From: Blautia parvula
GTDB taxonomy: Bacteria > Bacillota > Clostridia > Lachnospirales > Lachnospiraceae
NCBI RefSeq assembly: GCF_020215665.1
Contig: NZ_CP084061.1
Coordinates: forward strand, 2,450,001 to 2,514,000
Reading direction: 5' to 3'
DNA: 64,000 bases
Position 1 is the first letter of the stretch, and each line of letters opens with the position of its first letter. The notes under the pieces are model-generated. The model worked only from the letters and a program-made list of their open reading frames with translations, made no database searches and had not been told where the DNA came from. Shown here piece after piece: positions 37,310-63,708 of this stretch. A program made the position numbers and the translations under genes.

Positions 37310-39979
37310 TTATTTGGTATCATTTAGATGGGAATACCTTCGCCTGATTTTTTCTTCTGTATCTTTCCTGTTTTCTGTTCCTTCCGCCAGACGCACCTCC
37401 AGGCGCAGGGACGGGGGTGCATCCGTATAGAAGGAAATGATGTTTTTCAGGCTTAACCTGTTAGACGGTTCCAGGATCCAGGCCTGGTAAAAAGTACTGG
37501 ACGTGGGAAGAAACAGGGTGTCTCCCTCAATGCTTACCTGCTCCACGGTATTGAAAAACGCAGCCATGGTTTCCCCTTTCCGGCCTAAAAAGACGCAGAA
37601 CTCCTTCCATTTACGGGGCAGTTCCTCAAAGGAAAAGGGCTTCTGCATATAAGTGGAAGGTGTATGTTCCGGCAGTTTCATGCCCATAGGGGAATCCAGC
37701 TCTAAAAGCAGGTTTTCCAGGCCCCAATAGACAATCTTCTTATCCAGACGGTAATCTCCCACACAGGCAGCGCAGCCATCCTTACATTTGCAGCCTCCCA
37801 CCATTTCCATGGCATGTTCTATGATCTTCGGCATCAATTCATAGGCTTTCTCCGCGTAGCCCAGACCGCCCACATACTCGTCAAAAATGTACAGGCACAC
37901 TTCCTCCTGAAGCCCTGCGCCCAGATCCAGTGCATTGCCGGACATAGTGACACCTATGTCCTCCTGTTCTGTCATGGTCGCCATGCGGGCCGCGTTTCTG
38001 ATGGCATAGCAGATACCGTCAAAATGGTTATTTCTCAAAATCTGTCCGTTTCCCGATTCCCTTATAAGACTCCGGTACACCTGCACAACGTTTTTAGGAA
38101 TGGTGATCCAAGTACTCTCCGTGTCAAAATCTTTTGACAAAGGACGTGTAAGCTGCCCGTAACCCAAGTTCTGGTGGTTGTGAAACTGCAGCTTTTTATA
38201 CATGTAGACAGATTCTTTTACATTTACATCGCCGAAAAAAACTTTTGTCCTTTTGTATTCCTTTTCCGCATTTCCGTGTATGACCCGGATGGTGGTGCTG
38301 CTGCCCGGCATAGTGTAATAATTTCCACGGAAAGGAACCGCGTAGGAGGTCTTTGTCTCCTTATCCATGCGGACCACTTCATACTGGGCACCTCCGTGCA
38401 TGTACACAGCGCCCTCATGGATTTCACGGAACGCCTGCATCTCATCCATCTCTGTTATGATTCTGGCATTTTCCTGGTCCACCAGTTTATATCTGACTTT
38501 ATCGATATTCCTCAGGCTGAAATCTCCTGCCGGAAAGGTGTCTCCGCACCAGGAAAATCTGCCGTCCTGGGCGCTCAGCTCTTTGACTCTCAGCAGCACC
38601 GGGATCGTCTCACCCAAATCGGGAAAGACAGCGATATCATCAAGGGTGAGAGGCAGCTCCGCCGCCGCTGCCCGGATGTGGGCAAGCTCAATCAGCAGGT
38701 TGTCCCGGTCCACCACTGCACTTTCGCTCTCCCCGTCGAACAGCCAGTCCGGATTAATGGAAATGTACTGGTCAAAGGGCAGGTTATCCAGGATCAAATA
38801 GTTGGAACATGCCCTGCCGCTCCTTCCGGCCCTGCCGGTCTGCTGCCAGAAGGAAGCCTTGGTTCCCGGGTATCCGGCGAGTACGGTTGTGTCTATCTTG
38901 CCGATATCAATGCCCAGCTCCAGAGCGTTGGTGGAAATCAGGCCGCAAAGCTCTCCTGTGGTCATTTTGCGCTCAATCTCTTTTCGCTCCTTTGGGGTAT
39001 AGCCTCCCCGGTAGCCGGAGATCCGGTCAGCAGGCCCTGTACCGGATATATCCTCCCCGTCCAGCATGTCCCGGGCTTCTTTTAAGATGACCTCCACATT
39101 TCTGCGGGATTTTGCAAAGGTGAGAAAACTCTGTCCTTCCTCGGCAAGCTGTGCCGTCATGGCTGCTGCCACAGCGGTACTCTGTACCTGGCCGTAGTAT
39201 TGGTTGTCTTTTCCGTAAATCTTTGGCGGCTGGAGAAAGAAATACCGCTTTTCAGGTGCCGGAGAACCGTCCCTGTCAATGCGGATGAATTCTCTCTGGC
39301 ACACTGCCCGGGCAAGTTCCACGGGGTTTGCTATGGTAGCGGAACTGCAGAGGAACCTGGGTGATGCGTGATAGTATCTGCAGATTCTGGAAAGACGGCG
39401 GAACACATTGGCAAGATGGGAGCCAAAGGCGCCGCGGTAGGTGTGGAGTTCATCTATGACAATGTATTTTAAGTTGGAGAATATGAAGTCAAAGCCGGCT
39501 TTGCTGTGGTTTGGGAGAAAAGCGCTGTTGAGCATTTCCGGGTTGGTCAGGATAATGTTGGCATTCTTCCTGATACGGCTGCGCTCCGTGGGCGGCGTAT
39601 CACCGTCGTACACCCCTGCCGACAGTCTGTGTTCTCCAAATGTCTCGATCCAGGGGCGGATGGCACGGTACTGGTCGCTTGCCAGGGCTTTTGTGGGGTA
39701 GAGGAAAATGGCTCTTGACTGAGGATTAGAGAGGATTTCCTGTACGACCGGGAGGAGGAAACCCAGGGTTTTGCCGCTGGCGGTGGAGGTTGTGATGACG
39801 ATGTTTTTGCCCTGGGTGGCCTGGGTGAACATTTCGGCCTGGTGGGTGTAGAGGCTGGGGATGCCGTGGGTGGACAGGTGGGTGCGGATTTCCTCTGACA
39901 GGGTCTGGGGGTAGGGGGCGTACTGCGGGGGGATGGAAGGGGTTGTTTTTTGGTAGGTGATGAGGTTTTCTATTTGCAT
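37310..39979 (-). CDS. DEAD/DEAH-box helicase with DUF1998 domain, MrfA/YprA-like
   Basis: Superfamily II helicase of 889 residues. N-terminal motor: STASGKTLGF (I), YPTKALASDQ (Ia), VIDELHTYRG (II), SSATIANP (III). Second motor: STNALELGIDIG and QQTGRAGRSGR (VI). The C-terminal DUF1998 region ends with the four-cysteine site CKCKDGCAACVGDY. This layout matches Bacillus MrfA, a helicase of mitomycin-lesion repair. The partner MrfB exonuclease is not adjacent. The 5' part of the gene lies in a zone of extreme strand composition bias (see findings), without visible damage to the protein. Confidence 0.92.
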   Translation of the reverse strand: MQIENLITYQKTTPSIPPQYAPYPQTLSEEIRTHLSTHGIPSLYTHQAEMFTQATQGKNIVITTSTASGKTLGFLLPVVQEILSNPQSRAIFLYPTKALASDQYRAIRPWIETFGEHRLSAGVYDGDTPPTERSRIRKNANIILTNPEMLNSAFLPNHSKAGFDFIFSNLKYIVIDELHTYRGAFGSHLANVFRRLSRICRYYHASPRFLCSSATIANPVELARAVCQREFIRIDRDGSPAPEKRYFFLQPPKIYGKDNQYYGQVQSTAVAAAMTAQLAEEGQSFLTFAKSRRNVEVILKEARDMLDGEDISGTGPADRISGYRGGYTPKERKEIERKMTTGELCGLISTNALELGIDIGKIDTTVLAGYPGTKASFWQQTGRAGRSGRACSNYLILDNLPFDQYISINPDWLFDGESESAVVDRDNLLIELAHIRAAAAELPLTLDDIAVFPDLGETIPVLLRVKELSAQDGRFSWCGDTFPAGDFSLRNIDKVRYKLVDQENARIITEMDEMQAFREIHEGAVYMHGGAQYEVVRMDKETKTSYAVPFRGNYYTMPGSSTTIRVIHGNAEKEYKRTKVFFGDVNVKESVYMYKKLQFHNHQNLGYGQLTRPLSKDFDTESTWITIPKNVVQVYRSLIRESGNGQILRNNHFDGICYAIRNAARMATMTEQEDIGVTMSGNALDLGAGLQEEVCLYIFDEYVGGLGYAEKAYELMPKIIEHAMEMVGGCKCKDGCAACVGDYRLDKKIVYWGLENLLLELDSPMGMKLPEHTPSTYMQKPFSFEELPRKWKEFCVFLGRKGETMAAFFNTVEQVSIEGDTLFLPTSSTFYQAWILEPSNRLSLKNIISFYTDAPPSLRLEVRLAEGTENRKDTEEKIRRRYSHLNDTK

Positions 39980-40075
39980 GGTTTTGACTCCTGGGGTGAT
40001 TTTTTGTTTATAGGAACGTTTGTTCTTAGTTTAGCATTTTTTTTTGGGGGATGCAATGGGGTTGTGGCTTCGATT

Positions 40076-40139
40076 GTGGCTCACGGACGGGACCATCAGA
40101 GGGCCGGGGGCGGGAGGGCAGAGGCCCTCTGATGGTCCC
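40076..40139 (+). repeat. 14-mer plus GC-rich hairpin element, copy A
   Basis: GTGGCTCACGGACG (40076-40089) is directly followed by a perfect 17-bp stem, GGGACCATCAGAGGGCC (40089-40105) with its complement at 40123-40139, and a 17-nt G-rich loop. No T tract follows, so it is not a normal terminator, and it stands between divergent genes where none is needed. The same 14-mer precedes a hairpin at 62284-62359 on the other strand. In the gap 39980-40329 the only other items I see are the promoter and operators at 40204-40277. Confidence 0.8.
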
Positions 40140-40203
40140 TGACGGTGAAGTGCGGATGTAAAAGTAAACAGAGCAGTTTTTAGATTAATTGAGGATTTGC
40201 GGA

Positions 40204-40277
40204 TTGACATTTGGGGTGGATGTGGTATTATGGAAACAAGTGTTTTAAATCGTATGTTTTAAATCAGATGATTTAAA
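40204..40277 (+). promoter_or_regulatory. Promoter and operators of the TetR/ABC operon
   Basis: TTGACA (40204-40209) and TATTAT (40226-40231) are 16 bp apart. Downstream are two direct copies of TGTTTTAAATC (40241-40251 and 40255-40265). An inverted repeat TTTAAATC-AGAT-GATTTAAA (40258-40277) overlaps the second copy. This is a typical autoregulatory layout for the TetR-like gene that follows. Confidence 0.7.
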
Positions 40278-40329
40278 TTATATTTTGCTGAATATCTATG
40301 TGTATATTATGAGAATGGAGGGGTTTGGG

Positions 40330-40920
40330 ATGCCGCCTAGGGCTAAGTTTACGAGGGAAGAGATTGTGGATGCGGGGTTGAGGATTGTTCGGAGACGGGG
40401 GATGGGGGGTGTTACGGCCAGGGAATTGGGGGCGGAGCTGGGGAGTTCTGCAAGGCCGGTGTTTACGGTGTTTCAAAGTATGGAAGAGGTGCAGGCGGAG
40501 ATTGTGAAGGCTGCCAGGGAGGTTTATAACAGGAGTGTGAAGCGGGGGCTTAAGCAGGATATGGCTTTCCGGAGTGTGGGGATGGAGTATATCCGGTTTG
40601 CACAAAGGGAACCTCAGCTTTTTCGGCTTTTGTTTATGACGGAGAGGGAGGAAATGCCTGATGTGAAGGATGTGCTCTTCGCTATTGATGATAACCATGA
40701 GGAGATTCTGCAGTCGGTTCGGGAGCAGTATGGACTGAGTGATGAGGATGCGTGGACTTTGTACCGGCATTTGTGGGTCTATACTCATGGGATCGCTGCT
40801 CTCTGCGCTACCAATGTGTGCAGTTTTGAGGAGAAGGAGACTGAGGAAATGATGACTGAGGTTTTTACAGGAGTATTGAAAAATATAAAGGCAGGTGAAC
40901 GGCATGATCAGAGCTTGTGA
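40330..40920 (+). CDS. TetR/AcrR family transcriptional regulator
   Basis: An N-terminal HTH (FTREEIVDAGLRIVRRRGMG to VTARELGAELG) and a helical ligand-binding domain; 196 residues. ATG at 40330 has GGAGGGG 6 bp upstream, better than an ATG 45 bp further out. The position after the first HTH helix that is usually TYYYF reads PVFTVFQS, as in TetR members tied to ABC exporters. It overlaps the ABC ATPase gene by 17 bp, so it controls its own operon. Its coding strand is markedly C-poor and G-rich toward the 5' end. Confidence 0.87.
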   Translation: MPPRAKFTREEIVDAGLRIVRRRGMGGVTARELGAELGSSARPVFTVFQSMEEVQAEIVKAAREVYNRSVKRGLKQDMAFRSVGMEYIRFAQREPQLFRLLFMTEREEMPDVKDVLFAIDDNHEEILQSVREQYGLSDEDAWTLYRHLWVYTHGIAALCATNVCSFEEKETEEMMTEVFTGVLKNIKAGERHDQSL

Positions 40921-41596
40921 TCTTTTTAAGTCTTATGGGAGTGCCGATAATCCGTTTCCGGTGCTTCGGGGGATTTCCCTGGATATTGAGGACGGGGAGT
41001 TTGCCGTTATTTTAGGGGCTTCCGGGTCCGGGAAGTCTACGCTGCTGAATGTTTTGTCGGGATTGGAGACGCCGGATCAGGGGGATGTCTATTATGAGGA
41101 GAAAAAGATCACCGGGCTCAGTGAAAGTGAACTGACACGGTTTCGGAGGGAACAGGTGGGGTTTATTTTCCAGCAGTATTACCTGCTGCCTCATATGAAT
41201 GTGGATAAGAATGTGAAAATGGGGGCAGACCTGTCCGGTAATAAGGATTACCGGGAGGTGATCGAAGCTGTGGGGCTTGGGGATAAGCTGGAAAAGCTGC
41301 CCGGGGAGCTGAGCGGCGGGGAACAGCAGCGTGTCTCCGTGGCAAGGGCACTGGCGAAAAAGCCCAGGGTGCTGTTTCTGGATGAGCCGACAGGCGCTCT
41401 TGATGAGGCTACCGGAAGACTGGTGCTTGACTATATCTGCAGGCTGCAGAAAATGTATCATTTTACGGTTGTGATGGTTACGCATAATCAGAATATTGCG
41501 CAGATGGCCCACAAGGTCATTCTTATGAACAGCGGTAAGATCAGGGATCTGTACAGAAATGACACACAGAAAACAGCTTATGAGATAGGATGGTGA
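40904..41596 (+). CDS. ABC transporter ATP-binding protein, MacB/LolD-like
   Basis: ATPase of an FtsX-type (mechanotransmission) ABC system. Walker [11 protein letters not shown]-loop FIFQQYYLL, signature [15 protein letters not shown], Walker [11 protein letters not shown] and the H-loop VTHN are all intact in 230 residues. ATG at 40904 has AGG 9 bp upstream; a GTG at 40895 is the alternative. It is cotranscribed with the TetR-like gene and the FtsX-like permease; likely exports or senses an antimicrobial peptide or lipid. Confidence 0.93.
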
Positions 41597-41600
41597 TGGT

Positions 41601-42755
41601 ATGGTAGTGGAACTCAAGGATGCCGCTAAATTTACCGGAATTTTTATTATATCCTGCTGTGCAGTGTTTGTCTGTACCCTGTTTTTGAACTTTAATATGG
41701 ATATGGCAGGGATACGGGATGAGATTGCGCCCGGGCCTGTCACTGTGTTTTATGAGGCTCAGGTCTCCTCCGGCAAAATGATAAGCTACGTGAGCGGAGG
41801 GTGCCTTCTGCTCACCTCTGTGATCATGCTGTTCTTTTATATTAAGCATTATATTGACAGTCACAGAAAAGAACTGGGGATTTTAAAAGCTCTGGGGTAT
41901 TCTGATTTTAAGATCGCGCGCGGGTTCTGGGTGTTTGGGTTCAGTGTGCTGGTTGGAACCGGTGTTGGATTCGGGGGAGCTTTTCTCTTGATGCCCAGAT
42001 TTTACAGGGTGATGAATGAAGAGAATATCCTGCCGGATATTGCCGTACAGTTTCATTTCTCACTGCTTGTCTGCCTGGTTCTGATTCCTGCTGCATCCTT
42101 TTCCGCTCTCGCTGTCCTTTACGGATGCCGAAAGCTGGGAAGCCCTGTGCTGACACTTCTCAGCGGGAAACAGGGCGGGATCTTCAAGATAAGACGACAG
42201 AAAAAAAGCGGCAGAAAGAATCTTTCCTTTCTGCAGGATTTAAGGCAGAGCACGGCCAGAAGCCGGATCTCACTTGTGTTTTTCATTGGATTTGCTTCTT
42301 TTTGTTATTCTTCTATGATGCAGATGACTTTCGGTATGGATGAACTGGCAAGTCCTATGTTCACGGCGATCATATTTGTGATCGGGATTGTACTTTCTTT
42401 TACCACACTTCTTCTGTCTGTCACAACCGTTGTTGACTCCAATACCAAGACCATTGCCATGATGCGGGTATTTGGGTATTCGCAGAAAGACTGCAGAAAA
42501 GCCATTCTGGACGGGTACAGACCTGTGGCTTACACAGGATTTGCCATCGGCACCGCGTATCAGTACGGGCTGGTGAAAGGCATGGTTTCCATTATTTTTA
42601 AGGATGTGCCTGAAGTTCCCGATTACACCTTTAACTGGCAGGCGCTTTTTATCACTCTGCTCTCCTTTGCTGTGGTATATGAGTGTATGATGCTTTGTTA
42701 TTCTGTGCGGATCAAAAACATTTCTTTAAAGGAAATCATGCTAGAGCGTGTTTGA
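41601..42755 (+). CDS. FtsX-like ABC transporter permease
   Basis: Membrane partner of the preceding ATPase. Segments at about 12-30, 58-76, 108-130 and 148-168, then a cytoplasmic loop, then at about 222-245, 255-280, 305-325 and 345-365 indicate two FtsX-like halves with only short extracellular loops. It starts 4 bp after the ATPase stop. The last codons (CTA GAG CGT GTT TGA) lie inside the palindromic element that begins at 42741, so residues LERV and the stop codon come from that element. The natural C-terminus was probably different, but only the extreme end is affected. Confidence 0.88.
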   Translation: MVVELKDAAKFTGIFIISCCAVFVCTLFLNFNMDMAGIRDEIAPGPVTVFYEAQVSSGKMISYVSGGCLLLTSVIMLFFYIKHYIDSHRKELGILKALGYSDFKIARGFWVFGFSVLVGTGVGFGGAFLLMPRFYRVMNEENILPDIAVQFHFSLLVCLVLIPAASFSALAVLYGCRKLGSPVLTLLSGKQGGIFKIRRQKKSGRKNLSFLQDLRQSTARSRISLVFFIGFASFCYSSMMQMTFGMDELASPMFTAIIFVIGIVLSFTTLLLSVTTVVDSNTKTIAMMRVFGYSQKDCRKAILDGYRPVAYTGFAIGTAYQYGLVKGMVSIIFKDVPEVPDYTFNWQALFITLLSFAVVYECMMLCYSVRIKNISLKEIMLERV

Positions 42756-43816: not shown

Positions 43817-44632
43817 ATGTTTAAAATAGGAGAATTTTCAAAACTGACGCAGGTATCCATCCGGATGCTGCGCTATTACGACGAAGCCGGCCTTCTGAAA
43901 CCGACCAGCACAGACCCCTGGACCGGCTACCGTATGTACTCTGCCGACCAGATTCCCACCCTGAATAAGATCATTTATCTGCGCGACAGCGGTTTCCAGG
44001 TCTCGGAGATCGCCGCTGCTCTTGCAGCAGAAAATGAGACTTCCCTCCTGGAACAACTGGATCGGAAATACAGGGAAATCCGGGAAACCATTCAGTCAGA
44101 ACAGGACAAACTTCAAAAGATCGAACTGATCAAAAAAGATATCCTGCACGGAAAAAATGAAATGCAGTATCAGGTCTTCATAAAATCCATCCCCGCCTGC
44201 CAGGTCCTCTCCCTCAGACGAGTTCTGCCGGATTACTATGCCGAGGGCCTTCTGTGGAAGGAAATGTCCCGCTTCGCACAGAAAAACCGGATACAGGTTT
44301 CCTCTGACACCTTTTCCATTTACCACGACAGGGAATACAAAGAGACCGACGTGGACGTGGAAATATGTGCACCGGTAAAAAAGCCCGGCAAAAGTACGGA
44401 AGATTTCGTTTTCCGCCTTACAGAACCAGTCCCTTCCATGGCGTGTACAATGGTTTACGGCCCGTTTTCCAACATCGCCGGCGCCTACCTCTCCTTTGCG
44501 GACTGGCTGCAGAAAAACGTCCGCTTCCAAATGGCAGGGCAAAGCAGACAGATTGTCCACCGCGGCCCATGGAACGAAGAGGATCCCAAAAACTATCTGA
44601 CAGAGATACAGATACCCTTAGAGAGTGCCTGA
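43817..44632 (+). CDS. MerR family regulator with GyrI-like effector domain
   Basis: An N-terminal MerR HTH (FKIGEFSKLTQVSIRMLRYYDEAGLL, about residues 2-27, shown only as its position and ends matter: FKIGEF to AGLL), a coiled-coil dimer helix (about 80-115), and a C-terminal GyrI-like small-molecule-binding domain (about 120-271). Proteins of this build (BmrR or Rob type) bind cationic or hydrophobic drugs. It lies immediately upstream of a promoter with the stretched 19-bp spacer that MerR proteins act on (44665-44695). Confidence 0.9.
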   Translation: MFKIGEFSKLTQVSIRMLRYYDEAGLLKPTSTDPWTGYRMYSADQIPTLNKIIYLRDSGFQVSEIAAALAAENETSLLEQLDRKYREIRETIQSEQDKLQKIELIKKDILHGKNEMQYQVFIKSIPACQVLSLRRVLPDYYAEGLLWKEMSRFAQKNRIQVSSDTFSIYHDREYKETDVDVEICAPVKKPGKSTEDFVFRLTEPVPSMACTMVYGPFSNIAGAYLSFADWLQKNVRFQMAGQSRQIVHRGPWNEEDPKNYLTEIQIPLESA

Positions 44633-44664
44633 ACAATCATTCCGGCCTCCATATAAAAAGCAGC

Positions 44665-44695
44665 TTGACTCTCACACCGTGTCAGGGTCTACATT
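44665..44695 (+). promoter_or_regulatory. MerR-type promoter with 19-bp spacer and dyad operator
   Basis: TTGACT (44665-44670) and TACATT (44690-44695) are 19 bp apart instead of 17, and the spacer holds an imperfect dyad (GACTCTCACAC against GTGTCAGGGTC). This is the hallmark of promoters activated by DNA untwisting by MerR proteins. It drives the TsaA/TrmO-like gene. Confidence 0.85.
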
Positions 44696-44729
44696 GACCT
44701 TACAAATAAATTATATGGAGGAACACATT

Positions 44730-45206
44730 ATGACAACATACCAGTTACATCCCATCGGAACCATCCACAACAACGGAGAGGACATGTTTATAACCCTCAG
44801 CCCGGAATACATCCCGGCTCTGCAGGCCTTAGACGGCTTCAGCCACCTACAGGTACTCTGGTGGTTCAGCGACTTTGACACCAAAGAGGCCCGGGCCGTA
44901 CTGGAAACAGAACAGCCCTACAAAAATGCCCCTGCCGTCATGGGCATCTTCGCCACAAGGTCCCCCATCCGTCCAAACCCCATAGCCCTCACGACAGCGC
45001 CTGTCACATACATTGACTACGAAAACGGTGTCATCCATATTGCTTACATGGATGCCAACGACAACACCCCTGTCCTGGATATCAAGCCCTACACCCCCAG
45101 CATGGACCGCATAGAATCCCCAGCCGTCCCCGCCTGGTGCAGCCACTGGCCCATAAGCCAGGAGGAATCCGCTGACTTCCCCTGGGAAGACCAGTTCAAT
45201 TTTTAA
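44730..45206 (+). CDS. TsaA/TrmO-domain protein (putative tRNA m6t6A methyltransferase)
   Basis: TrmO uses S-adenosylmethionine to methylate t6A37 of tRNA. The protein starts YQLHPIGTIHN and contains FSHLQVLWWF, MGIFATRSPIRPNPI and LDIKPYTP, the family core. At 158 residues it has only the catalytic domain, as in many Firmicutes and archaea. ATG at 44730 with TGGAGG upstream is preferred. Control by a drug-sensing type MerR is odd for a housekeeping tRNA modification and suggests another substrate or a stress role. Confidence 0.85.
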   Translation: MTTYQLHPIGTIHNNGEDMFITLSPEYIPALQALDGFSHLQVLWWFSDFDTKEARAVLETEQPYKNAPAVMGIFATRSPIRPNPIALTTAPVTYIDYENGVIHIAYMDANDNTPVLDIKPYTPSMDRIESPAVPAWCSHWPISQEESADFPWEDQFNF

Positions 45207-61171: not shown

Positions 61172-62215
61172 ATGATAAACAAAAAACCAACCATACAGAT
61201 GGTCGCTGACAAAGCGGGCGTGTCCCGTGGAACGGTAGACCGTGTTCTCAACAACCGTTCCCATGTAAGCCCGGACGTTTACGAAAGGGTCATGGCAGCC
61301 ATTCAGGAGACCGGCTACCTTACCCCCCGCAGCACCTACCAGAAAACCTTGTTTGGTCAGGGCTTTCCGCCGATCAAGCTTGGTGTGCTTCTGCCCAACT
61401 GGACCGGCCATTTCCGCTGGGAGATCATGCGCGGCATTGAAGCTGCCCAGGCCGAGCTCACTGATTTCCATGTAAAGATCCTGGTAGAAGAATGCGAAAC
61501 CGACATCCCGGAGGAAAGCATCGAAAAACTGGACGCGCTTTTAGAGGCGGGCATTCAGGGCGCTGCTGTCTGCACCATGAACGACCCATCCATTGAGGAG
61601 AAGATCCGTTCCCTCACCCAAAAAGACATCCCGGTCATCACCTTCAACAGTGATCTGCCCGGCACCGACAGACTCTGCTTCATCGGTCAGGACTACAATA
61701 AAAGCGGCCGCATTGCCGCCGAACTCATCAGCAAATGCATCCCCTCCACCGGCAGAATCCTTGCCGCGGCGGGCAACCTGGAATTCGACGGCCACCGTGC
61801 CCGTCTGGACGGCTTCTGCACCCGCATGTCTGAGATTGGCTTCCCCCGGGACCAGATCCAGGTCATAGAGACCTACAACAACTACCAGCTCACCTACAAA
61901 AAAGTCCTCAGCGCCCTTCAGGAAGACCCGGCCATAAAAGCCATTTACATGGCCAACCGCAGCGTAGCCGGCTGTACCAAAGCCGTGGAGACGGCACAAA
62001 AAAAAGGAGAGATCCGCATCATCTGCCATGACATGTCAGAACACACGAAATCTCTCCTTCTGGATGGAACCATAGACTTTTCCATCTCCCAGGACCTCCA
62101 CCGCCAGGGCTACCTCCCCCTGATCTACCTAAGAGACTACCTTCACAAACAAAAACTCCCCCCAACCCAGGACACCGCCGCCAACATCTCCATCCTCTGC
62201 TCCCAAAACCTGTAA
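61172..62215 (+). CDS. LacI family transcriptional regulator
   Basis: An N-terminal LacI HTH (TIQMVADKAGVSRGTVDRVL) with the hinge region and a periplasmic-binding-protein-like sugar domain (IKLGVLLPNW, ITFNSDLPGTDRLCFIGQD); 347 residues. GGAGG precedes the ATG by 4 bp. The recognition helix reads RGTVDRVLNN instead of the more usual TTVSRVLN, as in a subset that binds non-classical operators. Divergent from the dehydrogenase-isomerase-transporter operon, where twin palindromes overlap the start of transcription. Its last 150 bp are very poor in G and T on the coding strand. Confidence 0.92.
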   Translation: MINKKPTIQMVADKAGVSRGTVDRVLNNRSHVSPDVYERVMAAIQETGYLTPRSTYQKTLFGQGFPPIKLGVLLPNWTGHFRWEIMRGIEAAQAELTDFHVKILVEECETDIPEESIEKLDALLEAGIQGAAVCTMNDPSIEEKIRSLTQKDIPVITFNSDLPGTDRLCFIGQDYNKSGRIAAELISKCIPSTGRILAAAGNLEFDGHRARLDGFCTRMSEIGFPRDQIQVIETYNNYQLTYKKVLSALQEDPAIKAIYMANRSVAGCTKAVETAQKKGEIRIICHDMSEHTKSLLLDGTIDFSISQDLHRQGYLPLIYLRDYLHKQKLPPTQDTAANISILCSQNL

Positions 62216-62283
62216 AAAGCTCCGGTCCTGGATTCACCACCACAGCCCCCCATACACCTCCGCTCCTCCCGCTTCCACAACCA

Positions 62284-62359
62284 GTCGGCATGGAGAGGAG
62301 ACCGTATGGGCCGGCGGGCCATTACCGGTCTCCTATCCATACCGACGTCCGTGAGCCAC
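62284..62359 (-). repeat. 14-mer plus long imperfect hairpin element, copy B
   Basis: Read on the minus strand, GTGGCTCACGGACG (62359-62346) is followed by a hairpin spanning 62346-62284. The arms GTCGGTATGGATAGGAGACC and GTCGGCATGGAGAGGAGACC differ at only two positions, and the loop is GC-rich. The 14-mer starts 2 bp after the stop codon of the MATE gene. The hairpin sequence differs from that of copy A, while the 14-mer and the layout are the same. No T tract follows. Confidence 0.8.
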
Positions 62360-62361
62360 CA

Positions 62362-63708
62362 TCACACGACCGCCCTACTCCCCTTCCGATTCACCCAAAA
62401 GAAATACCCCACACACAAAACAATCTGCACCCCCGAAGAACAAGGCGTCGCCAGCCCCACCCCAAACAAGGAAACCGGCACCATCCGGCTCATCAGAAAC
62501 GATACTGGAATCCTCACTCCGAAAGCACCGACGATTCCCTGCACCATCACAAACAAAGTCTTCCCACACCCATTAAAATACCCGATCATACAAAACATCA
62601 CCGAAACCAGCAGACAGTCAATGGCATACGCCTTCAAATACTCCGCCGAAGCCGCAATAACCTCCCCATCCCTGGCAAAGATCCCCGACAGGATATCCCC
62701 GTGGAAAAATGCCCCATAAGCCATCAAAACACCCACAGCCAGCGACATCCCAATTCCGCACAGCAGCGCCTTCTTCGCCCTTCCGGCCTCCCCGGCCCCC
62801 ATATTCTGTGAGACAAACGCTGCCATGGACTGATTAAAAGCAGACGGCACAAGCATAATAAACCCACACAGCTTTTCCGCAACCCCTACTCCCGCGGAGG
62901 GAATCACTCCCAGAGAGTTGACGATGGCAGTGATCGCCAGAAACGAAATACCTACCAGCACATCCTGAAACGCGATTGGAAATCCCAGCCGGAACACTTC
63001 CCCCATCCGTTTTCTGTCAAATGCAATATCCTTTCTGTGAAAAACAAATGGAAACTTCCTCTTCCGGATGATCTGCAGCGAGATCACCACACTCAGCACC
63101 TGAGCAAGCACTGTGGCAATGGCCGCCCCCGCAGTGGCAAGCCCGAAAACACCCACCAGCAGTAAATCCCCGACAATATTAAACACACAGGCGATCGCCA
63201 CCGTAAGAAGCGGCATCCTGGAATCTCCAAGTCCCCTGAAAATACTTCCGATCACATTATACGCCACAATAAACACAGCCCCTGCGGAACAGATCCTCAC
63301 ATAAGAGACCGTGGCATCAAATGCTTCCGGCGGTGTCTGCATGATCCTGGCAATGGGCACCGCAAACGCTTCCATGATAACGGTTATCACGACACCTATG
63401 ATGATGAACAGCATGATACTGGCTCCGATGATCCTGCCGCCTTCCTCTGCTCTCCCCTCACCGATTTTTCTTCCCAGAAGAATCGTAGTACCCATGGCGA
63501 TTCCCACCACAAAAGCCGTCACAAGCTGCATCAGCCAGCTCCCCGTGGATACTGCCGACACGTCTGCCGCCTGGGCAAACTGTCCCACAACCAGCATGTC
63601 CACTGCTCCATACATGGTCTGCAGAAAAATAGCCGCCAGCACCGGCAGGGCAAATTTAACAAGCGGCATCAAGATTTTTCCTTTTGTAAAATTCTGTCCT
63701 TGACTCAT
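62362..63708 (-). CDS. MATE family efflux transporter
   Basis: Twelve-helix Na+- or H+-driven multidrug/metabolite exporter of 448 residues. The start MSQGQNFTKGKILMPLVKFA is typical of the DinF/NorM-like MATE group in Clostridia. MGTTILLGRKIGEG, GIVPSAGVGVAEK-like and VSQNMGAGEAGRAKK repeats mark the two halves. It is expressed from a consensus promoter with a structured leader. The 3' half of the gene on its coding strand is rich in G and T and poor in C and A compared with the 5' half. Confidence 0.92.
   Translation of the reverse strand: MSQGQNFTKGKILMPLVKFALPVLAAIFLQTMYGAVDMLVVGQFAQAADVSAVSTGSWLMQLVTAFVVGIAMGTTILLGRKIGEGRAEEGGRIIGASIMLFIIIGVVITVIMEAFAVPIARIMQTPPEAFDATVSYVRICSAGAVFIVAYNVIGSIFRGLGDSRMPLLTVAIACVFNIVGDLLLVGVFGLATAGAAIATVLAQVLSVVISLQIIRKRKFPFVFHRKDIAFDRKRMGEVFRLGFPIAFQDVLVGISFLAITAIVNSLGVIPSAGVGVAEKLCGFIMLVPSAFNQSMAAFVSQNMGAGEAGRAKKALLCGIGMSLAVGVLMAYGAFFHGDILSGIFARDGEVIAASAEYLKAYAIDCLLVSVMFCMIGYFNGCGKTLFVMVQGIVGAFGVRIPVSFLMSRMVPVSLFGVGLATPCSSGVQIVLCVGYFFWVNRKGSRAVV

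Follow-up and report, generated by a model that had tools for sequence, protein, structure and literature searches.

Results

Two oriented hairpins at the centre of strand-biased zones

This study concerns a 64,000-nt stretch of Blautia parvula DNA (assembly GCF_020215665.1, contig NZ_CP084061.1, positions 2,450,001 to 2,514,000), referred to as the window, and a pair of directional hairpin elements within it, copies A and B, each lying in a kilobase-wide zone where the composition of one strand is strongly biased. A 14-mer occurs exactly at 40076-40089 on the plus strand and at 62346-62359 on the minus strand, and a hairpin of different sequence follows each. The source genome (a 6.25-Mb contig) is called G000, and two related genomes are called G008 and G009. 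The features of the two loci are listed below, a slash standing between foot and arm.

37310..39979, minus strand: MrfA-like helicase gene (name carried over from the initial annotation), its 5' part inside the skew zone
39100..42000 (approximate bounds), plus strand: G+T zone around copy A, mainly G over C, from skew plots and third positions
40076..40088, plus strand: copy A 5' flank, ending in the foot GGAC (40085-40088)
40089..40139, plus strand: copy A hairpin, coreless, with 17-bp perfect arms (40089-40105 and 40123-40139) and a 17-nt G-rich loop
40140..40141, plus strand: copy A 3' foot TG (C/TG)
40330..40920, plus strand: TetR-like regulator gene (name likewise carried over), inside the skew zone; its listed open reading frame (ORF) begins further upstream, at 40285
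61400..63500 (approximate bounds), minus strand: mirrored skew zone of copy B, with G+T on the minus strand
62282..62283, minus strand: copy B 3' foot TG
62284..62346, minus strand: copy B hairpin, coreless, with imperfect arms of ~21 bp
62347..62359, minus strand: copy B 5' flank, ending in the foot GGAC

The initial annotation had described a drop of C with rising G and T on the plus strand at copy A, lowest beside the hairpin, and the drop and the rise are confirmed by plots of GC skew and of T over A. Plus-strand GC skew is near or below zero up to ~39.1 kb, then turns positive, runs at about +0.4 to +0.6 over 39.8-40.7 kb and is about zero again near 42.0 kb, and the T excess over A peaks at 39.8-40.1 kb. 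The skew is indeed centred on the hairpin, but the C minimum is a plateau almost 1 kb wide and not a single point. At copy B the minus strand carries the mirror image of this profile. The skew of G+T minus A+C in 1 kb centred on the motif, read on the motif strand, is 0.32 at copy A and 0.35 at copy B, whereas its absolute value in 15 control stretches of 20 kb from the same contig has a 99th percentile of 0.15 and a maximum of 0.30. The top control peak, at locus L031, turned out to be a further hairpin element, similarly skewed and lacking the 14-mer, and this opened the search for a wider family.

As had also been proposed, the zone crosses a minus-strand gene, an intergenic space and a plus-strand gene, and is not the codon bias of one gene. 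Helicase third positions, read on the plus strand, have a skew of +0.44 in codons 5-255 versus -0.10 in codons 505-855, and the TetR side, read on the opposite strand, shows skew of the same sign. On the basis of the control stretches, the third positions and the fourfold sites described below, an artefact or single-gene codon bias was rejected as the source. The replication strand as a cause is not supported either, since G000 elements lie on both strands in both contig halves (10 plus and 13 minus, and 8 plus and 14 minus; origin not located). The skew at copies A and B is real and follows neither gene strand nor replication. A further minus-strand G+T skew peak lies at 44500-45100 of the window (-0.22 over 600 bp, plus-strand sign), and a core-free foot scan of the window detected no GGAC..TG foot there.

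Helicase orthologues with and without the element

Among 53 helicase loci scanned, the GGAC..TG hairpin foot is present at two, those of G000 and G008, and these are the two skewed ones. The 600 bp upstream of the helicase have skews of 0.30 and 0.20 with the element (G000 and G008), compared with a mean of -0.035 and a maximum of 0.08 at the 44 measured loci without it. Helicase orthologues without the element are unskewed in five genomes of the genus; the orthologue of a sixth genome is truncated. The skew extends to codon positions 1 and 2, which over codons 5-255 give +0.17 and +0.15 in the two element-bearing genes and 0.03-0.08 in six orthologues. One foot-free orthologue (L287) has an in-gene codon gradient of 0.43, larger than the 0.27 of G008, together with an unskewed upstream side, so that a within-gene contrast alone is not unique to element-bearing loci. 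Taken over the orthologues, the comparison indicates that the skew belongs to the element.

A dispersed family with constant feet and interchangeable cores

There are five exact copies of the 14-mer in G000, two in G008 and three in G009; a search of 58 further relatives gave none. Nearly all copies precede a very stable hairpin whose arms vary by site yet stay complementary, and orthologous arms have changed on both sides (L001/L008/L009; copy B in G000 versus G009). In G000 the copy at 4736074 has no hairpin and that at 3739610 has a damaged one. The former was considered as an autonomous copy with distant arms and rejected, a loose pattern search having found no convincing partner arm; L006, which carries the 14-mer with one mismatch, was judged by eye to be a chance match and set aside. 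About five tandem repeats of 74 bp with TTACGGACG lie just downstream of the hairpin-less 14-mer at 4736074 (L016 10026-10386). The initial annotation had taken the 14-mer plus hairpin as the element. Both copies are exact and do carry a hairpin, but the 14-mer is only one variant of the 5' flank, and the constant parts are GGAC/G at the foot and C/TG opposite.

The element set comprises 106 elements (45 in G000, 40 in G008 and 21 in G009), some mutually orthologous; one of the 41 c1 matches of G008 (1855334; c1 is defined below) lay outside the fetched stretches and was left out, and row set A5 holds 58 rows with five places included twice. A strong outer stem is found in 101 of the 106, and in 90 of these GGAC stands directly before it and TG directly after it; at random position pairs GGAC..TG was met in 11 of 2120. 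When a looser stem is allowed, the foot fits 97 of 106 elements; all 97 close with a G-C pair, even though any base pair would have satisfied the search. The elements are ~50-410 nt long, and many enclose one of two branched conserved cores, c1 or c2. Covariance models recover 36 copies of c1 in G000, 41 in G008 and 17 in G009 (E up to 0.1), and 5, 0 and 4 copies of c2, respectively (E up to 0.001); 11 of 12 predicted c1 pairs have sequences changed on both sides. Copies A and B are short members of this dispersed and apparently non-autonomous family of oriented hairpins.

In the wider bacterial family c1 is found in 14 of 298 genomes and c2 in 7 of 298, both counts including G000, and in a class sample of 393 c1 is found only in G000 and one genome of the same family; the filters of these large searches miss weak matches. 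Outside the genus the exact foot is kept at 9 of 23 c1 loci and 3 of 14 c2 loci, with one-letter variants at some others. A core-free foot scan of 364 kb (the 15 control stretches plus the window) returned copy A, copy B and one further, unskewed case. With permuted foot letters, 21 of 23 control combinations gave none and one gave 1, whereas GGCA..TG gave four strong stems against three for GGAC..TG; the scan is a check on copies A and B and no proof of specificity. No element scanned has an Rfam match at gathering score, the sub-threshold ones being miRNA-precursor models of long hairpins. Plasmids and phages gave no match to one c1 element, nor plasmids to one c2 element, and the literature matches listed included no description of a GGAC..CTG element or of a hairpin-centred skew halo.

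At unrelated sites, c1b hairpins related to one another (two of them very similar) match between the feet and diverge outside, suggesting that they were copied to new places. No target-site duplication was seen in the c1b copies, which have GGAC on one side and TG on the other, and no clean empty site was found. The same intergenic site may carry different cores by species, as at 697286 (c1, c1 and c2) and at the copy A site, where a coreless hairpin in G000 corresponds to c1 in G008. Across the three genomes, 15 pairs of c1 elements are spaced by less than 1.5 kb, and in every pair the members face each other. Facing pairs in G000 include 447243/447563, 5829011/5829238 and 6029090/6029730, with similar ones in G008 and G009, and at some c1 pair sites related species are without the second member.

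Several elements have their 5' flank, sometimes with the start of the arm, tandemly repeated beside them: five 14-bp units in L010 (upstream of the 14-mer), two longer ones in L007 and about five 38-bp units in L016 (12143-12325). These units look as if the foot had been re-copied repeatedly. At G008:C1 ~4557042 another long hairpin with a terminator-like stem is inserted within a c1 core, giving nested hairpins. In genome G159 (11 stretches fetched, L253-L263) the six c1 hairpins that were aligned are near-identical and are embedded in a longer repeat, with flanks shared on each side, and several assembly contigs of this genome end within a c1 hairpin.

Oriented skew across the family

Over all 106 elements the mean oriented skew is 0.066, and none of 100000 sign-flips gave a value as large (orthologues are not independent). 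Isolated elements are positive in 27 of 31 cases in G000 (mean 0.117), 22 of 26 in G008 and 13 of 17 in G009, which extends to the family the earlier proposal that skew follows the motif strand. By contrast, elements with an opposed neighbour within 2.5 kb have mean skews of 0.005 in G000 (14 elements), -0.005 in G008 (14) and -0.017 in G009 (4), and the difference from isolated elements has p values of 3e-4, 1e-3 and 0.065, respectively. Such near-zero skew is as expected if the two neighbours cancel. Skew also rises with hairpin stability, taken as RNA-parameter energy per nt, in G000 (rho -0.62) and G009 (rho -0.63), but not in G008 (rho -0.17, not significant).

The shape of the zone was read at fourfold sites around 20 skewed G000 elements; these were picked by skew, and the values show shape and independence of gene strand, not the existence of the effect. 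Within 500 bp the frequency of G is 0.51-0.67 and that of C 0.08-0.14, compared with 0.24-0.36 and 0.20-0.32 beyond 2 kb. G thus roughly doubles, C and A fall and purines rise, with the same sign in genes of both directions, and background is reached by ~2 kb. T goes from ~0.21 to 0.25 in same-strand genes and from ~0.23 to 0.13 in opposite-strand genes. The other 25 G000 elements show clear fourfold skew solely within 500 bp, in same-strand genes. The skew halo has so far been seen in one clade of three genomes.

Substitutions near the elements

Changes were compared among the three species, unrooted, as skew-raising (A>G plus C>T) or skew-lowering (G>A plus T>C). At copy B, where the hairpin is kept in G000 and G009 and lost in G008, the raising/lowering counts near the site are 16/23 in G000, 40/28 in G009 and 16/75 in G008, and far from it 16/16, 29/15 and 13/23. 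At site 433161 they are 41/35 for the intact element of G000, 33/53 for the fragment of G009 and 20/89 for the empty site of G008. The lean of G008 is also seen at four sites with an element in all three species, where its near counts are 64/153 (far 109/121) and those of G000 and G009 are 100/95 and 101/117. When all six loci are pooled, G008 has 102/326 near versus 124/151 far (p 6e-9), and G000 and G009 have 162/160 and 183/197 near. The simplest reading of these counts suggests that G008 has lost a trans-acting activity and that its zones are relaxing.

Where all three species carry the element, C>T and G>A are both at 1.22x the far rate. There is an excess of pyrimidine-to-purine change on the G000 branch (p 0.006).

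Discussion

Two features of the zones narrow the possible causes. Skew of one sign on both flanks speaks against simple resection from a break with two ends, and leaves an element strand that would be either exposed, or excised and re-copied. Purines rise at fourfold sites, so that C>T and A>G alone, whether from deamination or from wobble pairing, are insufficient, and pyrimidine-to-purine change or selection is needed. Moreover, the anatomy of the foot resembles that of repetitive extragenic palindromic (REP) elements, whose transposase cuts at a CT beside the hairpin according to the excerpted text of PMC8266576, and strand excision at the foot is for this reason the first step that we prefer. 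We propose that an enzyme recognises the folded element strand at its foot and cuts or excises there, that the gap in this strand is widened by ~1 to 1.5 kb on each side, and that it is refilled with the other strand as template, the element staying in place. On both flanks, errors of re-synthesis would build up in the element strand irrespective of gene direction: A>G and C>T would come from wobble misincorporation, and the purine rise from purines inserted opposite damaged bases of the template. The zone would decay once the element or the activity is lost. We give this proposal as a whole, from a mobile family of oriented hairpins to decay on loss, a probability of roughly 0.3. The broader view, in which a new class of mobile, structured single-strand hairpins with interchangeable cores makes a heritable, strand-specific halo of 2-3 kb, excision and re-copying biases genes towards G with changed codon and perhaps amino-acid choice, and an active trans factor was lost in G008, appears to us somewhat more plausible, although it is still held tentatively.

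Several observations weigh against the excision and re-synthesis proposal. Element-free G008 orthologues at copy B and 433161 are still skewed by ~0.07-0.33 beside the site. The dependence of skew on the element, as initially claimed, therefore holds for the foot-free helicase orthologues and not at these two sites, where absence of the element is not absence of skew; the residual skew looks like a decaying remnant and would argue for earlier generation followed by decay. If G000 and G009 are sisters, part of the G008 changes could instead be a gain of skew on their common stem, and rooting the test at copy A left too few sites, the far control there leaning like the near one. A>G and C>T per branch average 90 and 82 in G000/G009 and are 49 and 53 in G008; since both are lower in G008, synthesis errors and deamination are not separated by these counts. 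The pyrimidine-to-purine excess is absent on the G009 and G008 branches, and pooled it is 1.43 versus 1.25 for the reverse class. Wobble errors alone are transitions, which are unable to raise purines, and T is not flat at fourfold sites. Near elements, intergenic bases lose C and gain little G. The stability correlation may be confounded by the G+C content of the arms, and the stable G000 hairpins 2295170 and 5866819 are unskewed. In other genera, skew at c1 loci is positive in 14 of 23 (p 0.13) and at c2 loci averages 0.002 (14 loci). Finally, no enzyme was identified. The Y1 transposase family PF01797, which has matches in 10 of 18 genomes searched, was considered as the trans factor and found unsupported: searches gave none in G008 and none in G009, and the one G000 match is a broken fragment with a stop, covering positions 55-121 of 121.

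The alternative that survives best is the exposure of the element strand as single-stranded DNA, repeatedly and through an R-loop, a D-loop or a nick in the other strand widened by an exonuclease, with deamination of C to T and of A to G, a more specific form of the idea in the initial annotation. It fits the sign and the both-sided shape as well as the dependence of skew on the element and on hairpin stability, and the per-branch counts of A>G and C>T in G000/G009, unscaled for branch length, are ~1.8x and ~1.6x those in G008. Cytosine, however, deaminates far faster than adenine. T should rise most, yet G doubles, T is little changed or lower and purines go up, and where all three species carry the element, the rise of C>T does not exceed that of G>A. 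Deamination of this kind is not supported as the whole cause, and as a rival to excision and re-synthesis we consider exposure possible but rather less than probable.

Selection is a less likely explanation. A G/T-rich strand might aid the function of the hairpin in strand opening, recombinase loading or silencing, and the shift at codon positions 1 and 2 in the two element-bearing helicase genes would agree with this. Such selection, however, would need to prevail over constraints on codons and protein along 2-3 kb at numerous unrelated sites, and no enriched six-letter word stands out in the flanks against local composition, with GGGGGG below expectation. We also doubt that the elements favour DNA with an existing G/T skew as insertion sites, or that they brought the skew with them. 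The different cores at the skewed site 697286 and the residual skew of the empty G008 sites would be accounted for in this way, but foot-free helicase orthologues are unskewed, and of seven c1b hairpins apparently related by copying, five sit in unskewed DNA (three of them with an opposed neighbour). An origin of the skew in strong transcription that runs with the element strand across both flanks, by way of R-loops or transcription-linked mutation, is improbable, for although 27 of 45 G000 elements lie downstream of a same-strand ORF, the sign is the same where flanking ORFs, crudely called, oppose or diverge (copy A; 3185738, 3275121), and skew is present at fourfold sites of opposite-strand genes.

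Among known systems, REP elements and REPINs with their TnpA_REP (RAYT) transposases come closest, with many intergenic copies of which one strand is recognised, and a hairpin with a fixed tetranucleotide at the 5' foot and a CT dinucleotide at the 3' foot (excerpts of PMC8266576 and PMC6006769). The CT is found here too, an arm-end C followed by T in 97 of 97 elements (TG was required, C was not), which makes it a putative cleavage site. The excerpt of PMC6006769 defines the REP/RAYT system by GTAG or GTGG at 0-2 nt 5' of the hairpin foot, whereas the elements described here have GGAC (90 of 106; 97 of 106 with the looser stem). They are also longer, ~50-410 nt and often with structured cores, as against 21-65 nt for REPs, and a cognate Y1 HUH transposase is lacking, PF01797 having no match in G008 or G009. 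A kilobase-wide skew zone is not mentioned in the excerpted parts of the two papers.

Miniature inverted-repeat transposable elements (MITEs) are likewise short and dispersed, with inverted arms and no gene recognised inside, and are perhaps mobilised in trans. The strong outer stem of 101 of 106 elements amounts to terminal inverted repeats. Unlike MITEs, the elements have arms that vary between subfamilies, conserved branched cores in the centre and directional ends; the six aligned c1 hairpins of G159 lie in a longer repeat. The attC site of integrons is a folded single strand with conserved unpaired positions, a variable stem and R-box pairs at its ends. The likeness lies in the folded single strand with a variable stem, whereas the ends here, compared at the feet alone, are GGAC/G and C/TG without R-box pairs. 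The TwoAYGGAY RNA (RF01731; excerpt of PMC2864571) has one match in L189 (1161-1325, minus strand; 78 bits, gathering score 43), which sits within a second giant hairpin neighbouring a c1 element. The opposite strand of this hairpin shows the feet GGAC/G and C/TG, so that TwoAYGGAY may be a further core type. RF01731 has no match in the window at the gathering threshold and is not among the matches listed for 10 + 6 element loci. The replication-strand bias of Firmicutes also places G over C on one strand, whereas here the bias is local (2-3 kb) and set by the strand of the element, inverted copies 22 kb apart giving opposite signs. Copies A and B have T over A, the opposite of the A over T described for low-G+C Firmicutes in the excerpt of PMC3174206.

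In summary, dozens of large directional hairpins of a kind for which no description was found are present in these genomes, and many of them centre a kilobase-wide zone in which their strand is G-rich and C-poor; relatives without the hairpin have little or no skew, or a remnant of it. Replication, transcription or foreign origin are the usual explanations of local compositional asymmetry in bacteria. The asymmetry described here is linked to a particular directional DNA element. It increases with hairpin stability in two genomes, averages to about zero between facing elements, and is missing or apparently decaying where the element or a putative trans factor is gone. If our reading is right, the zones would be a sequence-readable record of a strand that is repeatedly broken and re-made, and would offer a handle on finding a hairpin-processing enzyme in gut-type Lachnospiraceae, in which the genes next to these elements would live under a private mutation regime.

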